Positions 17,618-48,715 of a stretch of 64,000 nucleotides of DNA are shown piece after piece; position 1 is the first letter of the stretch; the number at the start of each line of letters is the position of its first letter. The position numbers and the translations under genes were made by a program. The DNA is from Conchocele bisecta (taxonomy: Eukaryota; Mollusca; Bivalvia; Lucinida; Thyasiridae). Below the pieces are notes generated by a model, which was not told the DNA's origin, did not search any database, and saw nothing but the letters and a program-made list of their open reading frames with translations. The stretch covers positions 4,342,160-4,406,159 of the forward strand of contig CM055275.1 in the NCBI GenBank assembly GCA_029237695.1, given 5' to 3'.

Positions 17618-18359
17618 CTATTGTAGCTATTGTGTTCATAATCAAGATTTTCTATTCAAAATATGCTTAGTAATAACAATTATTGGATAATACAATTAAT
17701 AACAAAGATCAAGTTTAAATCATATAAAGGTATAATATTTACATATGACCCTCATATATTTACATATGACCCTCACAATTGTCAACTAATGGTGTGAACT
17801 TTGAGACAGTATCAACATCCAGGATAACAAACAGGTGGCTATCATGGAAATTATTGTTAAAGGTGTTGGCAAACTGATTGTTTGTTGATTATCAGCTGTT
17901 TACTGATTGCAATCAGTGTGCCTACACCTGTAACAATAATAGCCGTTAGCTTGTTTGACACTGTTGATCATTATCAATCGCTGAACATGACAGAAGCTGT
18001 AGTAGGGATAAGGAAATGGTAGTTTACCTTTAGCTAAAGGTGTCTGCAAAACAATTATCATTATCTATTAGTCCTAATGGTGCTCCTCTATTTTAATTTA
18101 GGATGTTTTCCTCAGCTGTACTGACATATGACACAACTTACATTTGTTTGGCAATCAAGTGAAGAATCAACAATACTCTGGCAGAAAAACAATTTGGATA
18201 TCAGATACAATGTTGTTGTATTAAATGAACTGGTATTGGCGATCTTTCGTCATTGTAACTTTTTGCACGAACCGTAAATGTGCTGTTAAATCTGATTGTG
18301 TAATATCTTAACTAAACCTGAATTAACAGATTGTATCAGAAGCTTGTAAGGTCAACAAA

Positions 18360-19674
18360 ATGTCATTCAGGAAGCCTAACAATATTGAAAACTTGTGGAA
18401 GAATATTGAACTACCGAAGCCAAAACCATGTATTGGTAAACCGAAACTGACAATCAATGAACCAAATGGACCAGTTTCGAATCCACTTTATGGAGTAACT
18501 GAAGTCATAAATCACTCTGTGAAAGATTCAAATGGGAATTCTACAGATATGGAACAAACTGGAAGTACAATCGACAGAGGGTACATAACATCAAGTATAG
18601 ATTCGTATGGAGATCAGTTTGAGCATGAGGCTGATGGAGAAGACATAGACGATGCAGAGGTAGAGATAATCAACATAAATAATCGAGTTTCCCGGGAGTT
18701 CAGTTTATCCCGGTATGACGTGGCCGTGCATCAGTTTCTCAACGTCAGAACAGCGGCACTCAGCAGGGTTATTCCGATTCAGATGGGCAGTCACCAGTAG
18801 AGGACTTTGTAGAGTTTGAAAATGAAAACGTTTTTCTTCCCAGGGAGAGAACTGACCATGGATCTGGTCATGTGATCTGTAGCTGTGACGATTGTGTAAA
18901 CCAGAAAGAGGCTGTAGACTGTCACTGTGAAAATTGTCTTTCAGCAAGGGGAGTAACTGATGTTGAACTTACTCACCAGCCAAGGGAGGTAATTTGTGAC
19001 TGTGAAGATTGTGCCAATCACTCTGGCGACTCGTATACTTGCGAGTGTGAGAATTGTTTACGGACGTACAAAGATTACGACAAACCGATAAATAATAACG
19101 TTCCGGGAGATGTGTGTAAATGCAAAAATTGTCTAGGACACAAGTCACAGACATCCGAGGTTTCTTCTTGCGAGAAATGTTGCGAAGAGGTTCGACTATC
19201 TGATAGCAGTACGCCAGACGTTGTTGGAAGGTCAAATGGTAACGTTGAAAGGTCATCGCCACGTGACTATGTGAACTTTGACCTTCCAAGCATATCTGAG
19301 CATGAAGACTCGGTCGATTGCGAACACTGCAGTGATCTGCATACTTCAAGGTCAGATAACTCTGCTCATTCTTTTTATGAAAAGGGAAGTAATTCTAGTC
19401 ACCCATCAACAAATGTCGGCTTTGAAATGCAATATGAATCGGAGTCGGAAAACGATGAAGTTTTAGACATCAGTAATTTGTGTGAACATTGCGACGATGG
19501 GCATAGTTTAGATGGTGGGTGTGCAATAAATATCTTGAACAATCATGACAATTGCGATGGCAGTAGTCTAGTGCTTGAAAATGTCACAGCAGACAGATGC
19601 GTGTGCAAAACATCTCTGAAACTACCGAGCAGACATCATGATGTACAGTCTCCAGTTTATGTTGACATAAATAG
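18360..19674 (+). CDS. Myo5: Myosin V gene, large cysteine-repeat exon (frameshifted as read)
   Basis: This exon joins in phase to the coiled-coil exon at 21,004: it ends with two bases of an Arg codon before a consensus donor (AG|gtgagt). The ATG at 18,360 has A at -3. The frame is open back to 18,327, so an internal exon with an acceptor at 18,327-18,329 (aattaacag) is also possible. The first part is hydrophilic and acidic. It is open to a TAG at 18,798, but from about 18,719 on the protein-like reading moves to another frame, which runs to the donor. One missing base between 18,719 and 18,797 would join them into about 438 codons. The second frame has five CxCxxC motifs (18,878, 18,920, 18,995, 19,040, 19,115), then looser Cys pairs (CEKCC, CEHC twice). 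I recognise no known domain. Membership in the myosin gene rests on the donor, phase and strand; a separate gene is less likely. Confidence 0.6.
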
Positions 19675-19682
19675 GTGAGTAC

Positions 19683-20348
19683 ATTGGAACCCCTCTAAAC
19701 TGGACACTGAGAAAACACGTTATCTCAATTTTTATGAATTTCTTGGTCATTTATCTCGGGTGATAATGTCTGTTCGTGATCGCATAGCACACAACTATGG
19801 CTCAGAATGGTAAAAAAACATCTCTATGCCAGACACCCTGGGGACCTCCCCAGGGTGTCTGGCATAGAGATGGGTTTTTTACCATTCTGAGCATAGAGCT
19901 CTTTCACTGTAGTCTTGGTTCAGAAGAACTAAGATTTTCCTTATGAAAATCACAATCATTTTTCACTACTTATTTCAGATTGAAAGTATTTGTTTTGACC
20001 ACTCATTTGAACCGTCTTGTTAAGTGGTCACAACATGTGTACTTTTTTTGCATAATTAACAGAAATGTTTATATTTTTCTGTATGAAAAAATATGCATTC
20101 TCTGGCTTAACCCTTAGACCGCTACTCACCACAATTGTCGTCGGCTGTTGCTTTTATATCTTGCCTTATTTCTCAATAAAACATGGTTTGACAGCACTTC
20201 AGAATCATTGAAATGATTCTGAAGTGCTGTCAAAGCATGTTGTAAATTATTCTAAAGTGCTGTCAAAGCATGTTTTTTATGATAAAAATGGAAAATATAA
20301 GATCAACAGCAGACAACAACAAAAATAAGATAGCAGTCTAAGGGTTAA
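19683..20348. repeat. Foldback repeats in the first myosin intron
   Basis: A palindrome at about 19,795-19,905 (cagacaccctggggacctcc / inverse) is followed by a family H fragment at 19,975-20,095 and a full family C MITE with TTAACCC ends at 20,107-20,348. Confidence 0.75.
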
Positions 20349-20424
20349 TTGGATTATACATAGTGTATTTGTTATTTGCATATTATGCATATTATATGAT
20401 TTCTGTATGATGACAACATATTTG

Positions 20425-20830
20425 TGACTGTGACTGAAGAAATAGGGCTCATGGGTTTTGCGACCAGTGAAGATCCAGATCCACATGGTCTGATGGATCT
20501 TCACCGTTCGATAGTCCATCAATGAAACATGCTGTCGTGTTTCTAACAAGGAATATAGGTTACAGGAGTGTGCTATTGGATCAGGAGCTGTACAGGTTGC
20601 AAATACCATAAGCCCCATTTCTCCAGTTGCAGCCATTTTTTTTTGTGAAATCAGTACTATGAGTTATTGCTTGGGTTATTTTTATTGCATTTTAAAGCTA
20701 TTTGTAGGTATTGACGGGATAAATGGAATAGTAGGTTAGTGCCGTGAATGGCAGAGCCTCGCCCATCCCGTTTCCTAAGCCTTGCCAAGATATTTTTTCC
20801 CATTCACGGCACTAACCTACTATTCTCTAT
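20425..20830. repeat. Family M copy and a palindrome
   Basis: Family M at 20,425-20,640. A palindrome at 20,728-20,825 pairs atagtaggttagtgccgtga with tcacggcactaacctactat; a fragment recurs at 26,874-26,920. Confidence 0.65.
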
Positions 20831-21003
20831 TTCTCCTGTCATAGCCACAAACGAGGAGGCTAAAAATAGATTTTTTTTTTTAAATATTATTTTATTTGTC
20901 AACCGGTTTTCAAAATCTAACTTTTGTTTTCTTAATTACATCATTTTCAAGCTATCTCGCCAGGTTTCGGAGTCAATTTCCAATTTTTTTCGTTATATTA
21001 CAG

Positions 21004-21124
21004 ACTGCTGGAGGACCAACTACAGAGGTCTGAGGTTGAGCTGAAGCAGAAAGACGCTGACCACACCAAACTGATTACCGAGCTTCGGAAGGAAAATGAC
21101 AAACAGCAGAAAATCATCACACAG
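21004..21124 (+). CDS. Myo5: Myosin V exon, distal coiled coil
   Basis: The exon lies between acceptor ...ttatattacag and donor gtaatt and is 121 nt long (1 + 40 codons). It completes the split Arg codon of the previous exon and encodes LLEDQLQRSEVELKQKDADH, then a stretch ending LRKENDKQQKIITQ. Leu spacing and high charge are typical of a coiled coil. The end matches the segment of animal myosin Va just before the NLxLxPEA motif, which is where the next exon begins. It contributes to dimerisation of the heavy chain. The following intron is 11.2 kb and full of foldback elements. I see no further exon in it, and none is needed because the protein reads continuously. Confidence 0.85.
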
Positions 21125-32333: not shown

Positions 32334-32411
32334 AACCTGTCCCTCACACCGGAAGCAAAACTTGAGGCAACGATGCAGCACGAGATTGGCCGATTGACGT
32401 CCGAAAATCTT
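32334..32411 (+). CDS. Myo5: Myosin V exon, coiled coil (NLSLTPEAK segment)
   Basis: This is a phase-0 exon of 26 codons between acceptor ctgtctccaccag and donor gtaagt. It encodes NLSLTPEAKLEATMQHEIGR then LTSENL. Vertebrate myosin Va has [20 protein letters not shown] then LTNENL at the same place, an unmistakable match. The segment belongs to the last part of the coiled coil that dimerises the heavy chain ahead of the cargo-binding globular tail. The 579-bp intron that follows holds a hybrid MITE. Confidence 0.97.
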
Positions 32412-32990: not shown

Positions 32991-33084
32991 GACCTTCGGG
33001 AGACCATAGACAAGCAAGCGGACCAGATCCGGAAACTGAAGAAGATGCTGAAGGTGTACGCCAAACGTCTCAAGGAAGGAGATG
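32991..33084 (+). CDS. Myo5: Myosin V exon, end of coiled coil
   Basis: The exon is 94 nt, with acceptor ttttttatccag and donor gtaagt, and it ends one base into a codon. It encodes DLRETIDKQADQIRKLKKML then KVYAKRLKEGD. Vertebrate myosin Va has [20 protein letters not shown] then KVFAKKIGELE. This is the last coiled-coil helix before the linker to the globular tail. In vertebrates this linker region carries alternatively spliced exons that select Rab partners, so the phase-matched candidate cassette 478 bp downstream is of interest. Confidence 0.97.
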
Positions 33085-36639: not shown

Positions 36640-37058
36640 ACTCAACAAATAAAGCACGGCGTTGTTCCCACCATGAATAACAAATAAAGCACGCCGTTAT
36701 TCCCTCCATGAATAAACAAATAAAGCACGGCGTTGTTCCCACCATGAATAAACAAATAAAGCACGGCATCCACCATGAATAAACAAATAAAGCATGGCAT
36801 TGTTCCCATCATGAATAAACAAATATAGCATGGCGTTGTTCCCACCATGAATAAACAAATAAAGCATGGCGTTGTTCCCACCATGAATAAACAAATAAAG
36901 CATGGCGTTGTTCCCTCCATGAATAAACAAATAAAGCATGGCATTGTTCCCACCATGAATAAACAAATAAAGCACGGCGTTGTTCCCACCATGAATAAAC
37001 AAAAAAAACATGGCGTTGTTCCCACCATGAATAAACAAATAAAGCACGGCGTTGTTTA
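36640..37058. repeat. 36-bp minisatellite abutting a myosin acceptor
   Basis: About 11-12 units of gcacggcgttgttcccacca followed by tgaataaacaaataaa. The last unit breaks at gcgttgtt and runs into taccctgcag, the acceptor of exon 37,067. Open frames across it in both strands are by-products. Confidence 0.95.
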
Positions 37059-37066
37059 CCCTGCAG

Positions 37067-37213
37067 CGGCGGAGATCCAGGCGGAGCTGGAGAGGGAGGA
37101 GACAAAGAGCGTGGAGAACGTGGCACACGTGAAACACCGCGACCGCAACTACATGGGCATGCTGGAGTACAAGAAGGAGGATGAAAACACGCTCATAAAG
37201 ACACTCATCTTAG
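37067..37213 (+). CDS. Myo5: Myosin V exon, linker and start of globular tail
   Basis: The exon is 147 nt, phase 2 in and phase 1 out, with acceptor tttaccctgcag and donor gtacaa. It encodes an acidic linker (AEIQAELEREETKSVENVAH), then YMGMLEYKKEDENTLIKTLI and L. Vertebrate myosin Va has FQGMLEYKKEDEQKLVKNLI and L. This is the N-terminal helix of the cargo-binding domain. The exon sits between two minisatellites. The upstream one (36-bp unit) ends within about 20 bp of the acceptor, and the downstream one is built from the exon end plus the donor. The donor gtacaa is weaker than the consensus. Confidence 0.97.
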
Positions 37214-39138: not shown

Positions 39139-39290
39139 AATTGAAGCCACGGGTGGCGGCGGGCCTGTTGCCTGGTTTACCGGCGTACATCATGTTTATG
39201 TGTGTGCGCCACACGGACTACATCAACGATGATGAGAAGGTGCGCTCACTGCTGACCAACACGATCAACGGCATCAAAAAATGTGTCAAG
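39139..39290 (+). CDS. Myo5: Myosin V exon, globular tail subdomain I
   Basis: The exon is 152 nt, with acceptor cattttggcag and donor gtaaga. It completes the Glu codon of the previous exon and reads [20 protein letters not shown] then [20 protein letters not shown] and [11 protein letters not shown]. Vertebrate myosin Va has [22 protein letters not shown]..., so this is a near identity through one of the most conserved parts of the class V tail. The domain binds melanophilin, Rab and other adaptors in animals and folds back on the motor to inhibit it. Those functions are known for the family, not shown here. Confidence 0.98.
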
Positions 39291-40653: not shown

Positions 40654-40894
40654 AAACATCACGACGACCTTGACCACGTGACCTTGTGGCTGGCCAACAC
40701 GTGTCGATTCCTGCACACACTGAAACAATACAGCGGGGAGAAGCCGTTCCAGAACGAAAACTCGACACGCCAGAACGAACACTGCCTCCGCAACTTTGAC
40801 CTGGCCGAGTATCGTCAAGTGTTCAGCGACCTCGCTGTGTGGATATACCAGACGCTGATCAAACTGATGGAGGCCACGATACAGCCATCTATAG
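40654..40894 (+). CDS. Myo5: Myosin V exon, DIL domain core
   Basis: The exon is 241 nt (80 codons + 1), with acceptor tgtatttatag and donor gtcagt. It contains [20 protein letters not shown] then [20 protein letters not shown]. Vertebrate myosin Va reads [20 protein letters not shown] and [20 protein letters not shown]. This is the first half of the dilute (DIL, PF01843-type) domain, which forms the helical cargo-binding bundle. The exon ends QPSI plus one base, which is completed by the next exon. The next intron carries a C2 foldback element only 45 bp downstream. Confidence 0.98.
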
Positions 40895-42632: not shown

Positions 42633-42757
42633 TGCCGGCGGTGTTGGAGCATGAGGCAATTGCGGGACTCACCGGGAGCAAGCCGACCGGCCGTGGAAGA
42701 ACGAGTAGCGTGACTGCCGACACCGTCGAATATTCCCTCGACACGCTGATGAAGTCT
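42633..42757 (+). CDS. Myo5: Myosin V exon, DIL domain with regulatory loop
   Basis: The exon is 125 nt, with acceptor tctcacgtgcag and donor gtaagt, and ends at phase 0. It reads VPAVLEHEAIAGLTGSKPTG then RGRTSSVTADTVEYSLDTLM and KS. Vertebrate myosin Va has GMLEHETIQGVSGVKPTG then RKRTSS at this place. The loop is the reported site of phosphorylation of the vertebrate tail by basophilic kinases (CaMKII/Akt type). The RxRxxS pattern is kept here, with the candidate Ser codon at 42,707-42,709. The loop is otherwise divergent. Confidence 0.96.
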
Positions 42758-45479: not shown

Positions 45480-45637
45480 TTGAGCCAATTTGTGCGAGTG
45501 TTGAACCTGCATGCCGTGGACCCTGAGCTGACCAAACAGATTTTCCGACAGTTGTACTATTTCCTCGGTGCGAATGCACTCAATAACCTCCTGCTACGCA
45601 AGGATATGTGCAACTGGTCCAAGGGTATGCAAATCAG
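45480..45637 (+). CDS. Myo5: Myosin V exon, globular tail subdomain II
   Basis: The exon is 158 nt, with acceptor gtcatatattgcag and donor gtaagt, phase 0 in and 2 out. It encodes [20 protein letters not shown] then [20 protein letters not shown] and [12 protein letters not shown]. Vertebrate myosin Va has MDPELIKQVVKQMFYIIGAI, then [20 protein letters not shown]. This is the heart of the DIL domain. The last codon is a split Arg (AG|G). A long CCAACC-type array lies in the following 1.04-kb intron. Confidence 0.98.
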
Positions 45638-46676: not shown

Positions 46677-46848
46677 GTATAACCTGTCCCACTGTGAGCA
46701 GTGGCTGAGAGACAACAAACTGCAGGAGTCTGGCGCGGGCTCCACCCTAGAACCGATCGTCCAGGCGTCACAGTTACTACAGGCCCGTAAAACCGAGGCG
46801 GACGTCGAGAGTGTTTGTGAAATGTGTTCAAAACTCACAGTCCCCCAG
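46677..46848 (+). CDS. Myo5: Myosin V exon, globular tail subdomain II
   Basis: The exon is 172 nt (1 + 57 codons), with acceptor accatctatcccccag and donor gtatgt. It reads [20 protein letters not shown] then [20 protein letters not shown] and later [14 protein letters not shown]. Vertebrate myosin Va has [20 protein letters not shown], then [20 protein letters not shown], then AICSMCNALTTAQ. The polypyrimidine tract of its acceptor sits at the very end of the CCAACC/TATCCAACC array, so the splice site may be made from array sequence. Confidence 0.98.
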
Positions 46849-48269: not shown

Positions 48270-48478
48270 AGATTCTGTTTTCTATTTTTAGATTATGTGA
48301 TTCTATTTTTAGATTATGAAAATTCTATTTTTATATTATGTTTTCTATTTTTAGATTATGAAGATATTTTTTAGATTATGTTTTCTATTTTTAGATTATG
48401 AAGATTCTATTTTTAGGTTATGTTTTCTATTTTTAGATTATGAAGATTCTATTCTTAGTTTCTGTTTTCTATTTTTAG
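48270..48478. repeat. 20-22-bp minisatellite derived from a splice acceptor
   Basis: About ten units alternate attatgttttctatttttag with attatgaagattctattttt plus ag. The authentic junction is ctatttttag|ATTGTGAAGATTCT, so the repeat is the acceptor with the first exon bases. Confidence 0.93.
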
Positions 48479-48715
48479 ATTGTGAAGATTCTCAACCTGT
48501 ACACACCAGTTGACGAGTTCGAGGAGCGAGTGCCGATAGCTTTTATACGCAAGATCCAGCACCACCTTAAAACACGAGAGAACATGGACAACTCCCTTCT
48601 CATGAACCTCAAGTTCTCGTTCTCCGTGACTTTCCCGTTTAACCCATCAAACATTGCCCTAGAATCGGTGGAAGTGCCGCCACAGCTGCATTTAGCTTGC
48701 TTGTCGCGGCACTAG
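48479..48715 (+). CDS. Myo5: Myosin V last coding exon
   Basis: The exon has 78 codons plus a TAG stop, with acceptor ctatttttag at phase 0. It reads [20 protein letters not shown], then [20 protein letters not shown] and [20 protein letters not shown], ending LACLSRH. Vertebrate myosin Va has [20 protein letters not shown], then [20 protein letters not shown] and a C-terminus GFISRV, so the end is in the expected place and the tail is complete. The stop codon is the last triplet of the first copy of a 16-bp tandem duplication. Upstream is an array that repeats this exon's own acceptor. Confidence 0.97.
   Translation: [78 protein letters not shown]

Follow-up and report, generated by a model that had tools for sequence, protein, structure and literature searches.

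In the clam Conchocele bisecta, the myosin V gene probably possesses, as read from its sequence, an alternative first coding exon that runs from an ATG at 18,360 to a splice donor after 19,674 and would give rise to a product without a motor. Headless unconventional myosins are a known kind of protein, and the one described here would be a class V variant; judged from the assembled sequence of the window (the whole 64-kb stretch of DNA that was analysed), it begins at a start codon of its own, downstream of the motor, and is joined to the tail, with one frame break in the assembled exon. The initial annotation had taken the cysteine-rich part of this exon for a segment inside an ordinary class V myosin, adjoining the coiled coil. 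That reading is unsupported because the exon has its own ATG, its relatives lack a motor or IQ match in Pfam, and the cysteine array ends about 180 residues ahead of the junction with the coil. The coordinates of all features are collected in Table 1.

Table 1. Features of the putative alternative first exon and of the myosin V tail, in positions of the window
Feature	Position	Strand	Evidence or remark
Frame A, 5' part of the putative alternative first coding exon	18360..18749	+	from ATG; acidic; starts MSFRKPNNIENLWKN, ends SREFSLSRYDVAVHQFLNVR
Single frame break, frame A to frame B	18740..18760 (approximate)	+	open frames overlap 18719-18797
Frame B, 3' part of the putative alternative first coding exon	18746..19674	+	Cys array, Cys pairs, end ...SPVYVDIN-AG
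Array, five CxCxxC motifs	18878..19132	+	motif positions, DNA repeat, shuffles, Cys kept in Mya
CSCDDC	start 18878	+	frame B
CHCENC	start 18920	+	frame B
CDCEDC	start 18995	+	frame B
CECENC	start 19040	+	frame B
CKCKNC	start 19115	+	frame B
Looser Cys pairs	19169..19606	+	CEKCC 19169, CEHC 19319, CEHC 19481, CVC 19598
Splice donor GTGAGT	19675..19680	+	TAG/GTGAGT; own TGA also ends open frame
First myosin V tail exon in the window, coiled coil LLEDQLQ...KIITQ	21004..21124	+	entry phase AG/A; aligns to mollusc and vertebrate myosin V
Tail exon, NLSLTPEAKLEATMQHEIGRLTSENL	32334..32411	+	tblastn, splice sites and phases
Tail exon, coiled coil DLRETIDKQ...LKEGD	32991..33084	+	tblastn, splice sites and phases
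Tail exon, linker and start of globular tail	37067..37213	+	tblastn, splice sites and phases
Tail exon, globular tail	39139..39290	+	tblastn, splice sites and phases
Tail exon, globular tail	40654..40894	+	tblastn, splice sites and phases
Tail exon, globular tail	42633..42757	+	tblastn, splice sites and phases
Tail exon, globular tail (DIL part)	45480..45637	+	tblastn, splice sites and phases
Tail exon, globular tail (DIL part)	46677..46848	+	tblastn, splice sites and phases
Last tail exon, to TAG stop	48479..48715	+	tblastn, splice sites and phases; tail aligns to 7yv9

Ten tail exons, placed by tblastn with a human MYO5A sequence, follow one another in order between 21,004 and the stop at 48,715, with their splice sites intact and their phases fitting. 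When spliced, they encode 507 residues, of which 1-506 align to chain residues 1321-1827 of the solved myosin Va 7yv9 (E 3.3e-182), and a DIL domain (PF01843, E 8.1e-36) is found with nearly the whole profile covered. By these matches, this part of the gene is a complete class V myosin tail. No second copy of the tail was found elsewhere in the 64-kb window, and queries with motor, IQ and proximal-coil sequences (from human and from databases) gave no convincing match in 1-21,003. Two tandem repeats lie against tail exons: a 36-nt repeat of 11.6 copies (36644-37056) reaches the acceptor region and ends about 10 bases before the exon at 37,067, and a 42-nt array (48280-48492), containing TTCTATTTTTAG-like stretches that resemble splice acceptors, overlaps the acceptor of the last tail exon at 48,479 together with the opening bases of that exon.

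The coding exon extends further than the initial annotation had described, beginning at the ATG in a second open frame (frame A, open over 18,327-18,800), upstream of which in-frame stops stand at 18324, 18309 and 18222. Frame B, which holds the cysteines, is open for 319 codons (18,719-19,674), against 225 for the longest frame in 100 simulated 64-kb windows. The codon-position asymmetry of the 926-nt stretch 18749-19674 is 68, compared with a maximum of 22 in background windows taken at 50-base steps across the first 17 kb; frame A gives a weaker value of 15.5, its background having a 95th percentile of 12.2 and a maximum of 19.0. Third-position GC in the exon (0.34-0.37) equals the overall GC of the window (0.37) and stands at 0.70 in the tail, a point that weighs against the headless reading.

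The passage from one frame to the other can be followed in tblastn with P0013, a protein of the bivalve Mya arenaria, whose residues 116-147 align in frame A up to 18749 and residues 149-257 in frame B from 18746, so that one exon with one frame break is the simplest account. The assembled exon therefore does not encode the whole protein, and the break may reflect an assembly error, an allele or decay. Two other causes of the frame change were considered. A 29-nt intron (gt...ag, 18,720-18,748) was dropped because the alignment of Mya residues in frame A continues to 18,749, and a -1 frameshift signal was rejected, with no X-XXY-YYZ heptamer in frame A across 18,690-18,800.

At its 3' end, the exon joins the tail in phase, as had been proposed: the splice from 19,674 to 21,004 completes AG/A as Arg, and LLEDQLQ follows. 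Scored with a matrix made from the nine other donors of the gene, the donor following 19,674 comes 5th of 1383 GTs within 1-21,000; the acceptor preceding 21,004 comes 4th of 1000 AGs, being itself within the training set of its matrix. With 9 donors and 10 acceptors behind the matrices, the scores are rough. Just 3' of the exon, at 19809-19882, lies an inverted repeat whose 36-base arms, when a few mismatches are allowed, are separated by almost no loop, and which is probably a small mobile element.

The description of the array in the initial annotation has been confirmed in its particulars. All five CxCxxC motifs, spaced 14, 25, 15 and 25 residues apart, lie in one frame; two motifs fall in each unit of 39-40 residues; and the looser Cys pairs follow after the array. 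In the DNA of the array, a 20-nt unit recurs at 42, 75, 45 and 75 nt. The array is beyond chance, its five motifs comparing with a mean of 0.16 and a maximum of 3 in 20,000 shuffles of the 308 residues, and His residues can be seen by eye near several of the motifs. The claim that no known domain fits the segment also agrees with the searches of Pfam, NCBIfam and the PDB, none of which returned a significant match. Nothing was found in Pfam at E 1 with either the frame A or the frame B part, no NCBIfam family matched the frame B part, and the best PDB entries were the ATXR5 PHD domain (E 0.93, sequence query with the Cys segment) and AvrSr27 (E 0.38, profile search with the repeat), neither of them significant. 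AlphaFold2, run on 3 sequences, gave a mean pLDDT of 31.8 and no confident fold, and such low confidence from three sequences fits a disordered or a metal-dependent region while proving neither. On its sequence, metal binding or redox-linked folding of the array is plausible.

It had further been claimed that no known class V myosin carries such a segment. This holds only in part, as two database entries of Mya arenaria, P0012 (912 aa) and P0013 (1033 aa), carry the array, and both are without a motor. The two are MYO5A-like, show no motor or IQ match in Pfam, bear database names that make no mention of the array, and resemble the window in having a related N-terminus, a CxCxxC array, the junction and the tail. 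Their N-terminus and array are directly joined to LLEQQLQ... and the tail, which bears out the assignment of the exon to a myosin V gene. They differ from the window in having six motifs in a row rather than five (at spacings of 14, 26, 16, 23 and 19), with one more near the exon end in P0013, and in that several tail copies are listed on one contig in Mya.

The relationship extends over both halves of the exon. Within a set of 57 proteins, blastp aligns frame A to residues 3-147 of P0013 (E 1.9e-6) and frame B to residues 149-257 (E 1.1e-14), and 0 of 500 shuffles reached the score of either half against the P0013 N-terminus. The start codon is common to both, P0013 opening with MGDIEELWKK and the window with MSFRKPNNIENLWKN. 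Across motifs 1-4, 12 of 12 cysteines are kept between the window and Mya, as are 14 of the 48 other aligned residues; with the cysteines masked, the match of frame B to Mya still beats the shuffles, but narrowly (109 against 106 for the best shuffle). The residues that follow the opening CxCxxC of unit 1 (NQ) and of unit 2 (NH) agree, by eye, between the window and Mya, and the two units were therefore probably present before the lineages split.

The set of 57 was drawn, within length limits, from the 7991 candidates sharing most words with a query of frame B plus tail, and motor-bearing full-length myosins were mostly out of reach of this search because of those limits. A protein search with frame B alone returned 0 of 402 candidates, longer relatives being perhaps beyond the length limit. 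With the Mya array as the query, a further protein search found only the two Mya proteins among 190 candidates, so that the array is seen only in the window and in Mya. The relatives appear to be database predictions, some of them marked partial.

Beyond Mya, the motorless layout recurs with the same junction and other N-termini in models of Pecten (P0003), Mytilus (P0041), Patella (P0007), Littorina (P0006) and Biomphalaria (P0008). Like the window, these five place a long acidic N-terminus directly before the same tail exon, and the Pecten, Mytilus and Patella models have one CxCxxC near the junction; unlike it, none of the five has an array. The window N-terminus is not significantly similar to any of the five, shuffles often scoring as high, and neither is that of Mya P0013, for which Biomphalaria P0008 is borderline (2 of 200 shuffles reach the score). 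Pecten and Mytilus are significantly similar to each other in the N-terminus (255 against 150 for the best of 200 shuffles), and their ends are closely similar around CxCxxC...STMCP(E/D)E(P/A)PYVLMCEICE. What is common beyond Mya, as far as these sequences go, is thus the position, the acidity and often one CxCxxC, whereas common descent is not proven.

In all, nine mollusc models have an N-terminus of their own before LL(E/Q)xQL (P0003, P0006, P0007, P0008, P0010, P0012, P0013, P0016 and P0041, with P0010 and P0016 marked partial). This count excludes P0001 and P0011, where no more than 24 residues precede the junction; three models with a coil, P0004, P0005 and P0017; P0009, whose sequence opens at the junction; and P0002, P0014 and P0021, where no junction pattern could be found. 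A CxCxxC occurs in five of the nine (P0003, P0007, P0012, P0013, P0041) and is absent in four. Seven have a strongly acidic N-terminus, with a net charge of -24 to -140; the values for P0010 and P0016 are -6 and 0. The residue split by the junction varies among models (R, G, E, Q, L, I), and each could be encoded by a codon whose last base is A, which is what the phase in the window demands.

Motorless models are also seen in crustaceans. In the decapods Petrolisthes (P0024) and Cherax (P0055), a different and mutually similar N-terminus, MTF...LPDI(L/I)SVV..., is joined without a motor to the myosin V coil upstream of the tail, and headless class V products may thus, on the face of these sequences, exist in crustaceans too. 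Two myosin Va models of the barnacle Amphibalanus (P0039, P0045) have an unrelated N-terminus shortly before the globular tail, without a motor or a long coil.

In Pecten and Littorina, second models (P0004, P0005) have a coil exon ending in ...NR before the same tail, and the coil-bearing and headless models share every residue of the tail from MQHEI on (460 and 466 residues), which argues for the alternative use of one gene. It is possible, though rather unlikely, that the whole gene in the window is instead a stand-alone, motorless gene, in which a duplicated tail has a first exon to itself, and is no isoform of a motor-bearing gene. Such a duplicate would agree with the lack of any detected motor or coil exon in the 21 kb upstream, and with Mya, where several tail-bearing models are listed with one contig, so that tail copies seem to duplicate there; the identical tails of Pecten and Littorina, pointing to one gene, and the single tail copy found in the window speak against it. 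The Mya models concerned (P0001, P0002, P0010, P0012, P0013 and P0016) are motorless, are listed with one 52.9-Mb contig, form a Mya-only group and comprise about four distinct tails (P0001 with P0016, P0002 with P0012, P0010, and P0013), as if the tail gene had duplicated within this lineage. With support of 100/99, the tail of the window falls together with these six Mya rows, which probably indicates a source among bivalves near Mya.

Less probable is that the exon has lost its function and is in decay, with a real and fixed frame break and a codon usage that has drifted to the background. The break itself and the third-position GC, which does not depart from that of the window, would suit such a remnant; however, about 130 and 310 codons are open on the two sides of this one break, the codon-position asymmetry of frame B is high, motifs 1-4 have lost none of their cysteines and the donor is intact. 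It is similarly improbable, and slightly more so, that the exon is a cassette in an ordinary motor-bearing myosin V, spliced from an upstream coil exon and inserting about 440 residues before the distal coiled coil, as the wording of the initial annotation implied. Frame A opens at 18,327, just before an AG at 18,328-18,329, so that splicing to 18,330 could leave it open, but this acceptor is poor (rank 417 of 1000 AGs), the Mya proteins have no motor match and their first residue is the equivalent methionine, and an upstream coil or motor exon was not detected in 21 kb. A separate single-exon gene nested in a myosin V intron and unlinked to myosin V, its TGA stop resembling a donor by chance, is very improbable: the frame does end at a TGA within the donor and a polyadenylation-like AATAAA lies at 20,175, but the donor is among the highest-ranking GTs with a phase that fits the next exon, and related sequence is fused to the myosin V tail in two Mya proteins.

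For the headless isoform of myosin V, we infer a transcript, a promoter, zinc binding, pairing and a competitive or anchoring role along the following lines. An internal promoter within the large intron would drive a transcript that starts at the Cys exon and splices from it into the last ten myosin V exons. The product would combine a long acidic N-terminal region bearing the CxCxxC array with the end of the coiled coil and the complete cargo-binding globular tail. Each CxCxxC, helped by a Cys or His close by, would most likely hold a zinc ion, and the resulting small metal-braced knuckles could bind a partner or oligomerise. The coiled coil could pair the product with itself or with full-length myosin V, and the globular tail would occupy cargo adaptors without moving them, making the product a competitor or an anchor and not a transporter.

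Two known systems lend themselves to comparison. Headless Myo10 lacks the motor, arises from a transcript that starts inside the gene and keeps the tail, and is described as forming dimers with full-length Myo10 and as a competitor for cargo (PMC6345916). Like the product predicted from the window, it is an unconventional myosin with the motor missing and the tail retained; unlike it, it is of class X, from mammalian brain, with a MyTH4-FERM tail, and the available portion of that report does not mention a long acidic first exon with a Cys array. A coil and a full cargo-binding tail without a motor would therefore, by analogy with headless Myo10, most likely mean pairing or competing with full-length myosin V for cargo. 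The SV40 small t antigen binds two zinc ions through two CxCxxC clusters, each with a fourth Cys or His (PMC1945078), and the CxCxxC clusters of the array would, by analogy with this solved viral protein, most likely bind zinc. In many metazoan separases, a conserved CxCxxC occurs with a nearby His, with metal binding only suggested (PMC5921967). Small t and separase have the same six-residue motif as the array, but they are unrelated proteins without tandem arrays, and no homology is claimed.

Among the matches listed from the open-licence literature, neither a motorless class V isoform in molluscs nor this array appears in the titles or the beginnings of the abstracts, and the words 'headless' and 'without motor' do not occur in the available part of a survey of myosins (PMC5583752). 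If a class V counterpart of headless Myo10 does recur across molluscs, a main actin cargo motor of animals would there be balanced by its own motorless tail, the tail exons being conserved while the first exon changes quickly. A more far-reaching possibility, put forward tentatively, is that motorless class V myosins are regular products of molluscs, and perhaps of arthropods, encoded from alternative first exons that evolve fast, and that the tandem array grown in this exon in the clam lineage forms a new zinc- or redox-responsive domain, making the myosin V tail a metal-gated cargo anchor that works against the full-length motor. In the clams, the first exon would have gained a repeated cysteine module that is unmatched by the family libraries searched (Pfam and NCBIfam), and the gene may yield a cargo-binding tail without its engine.
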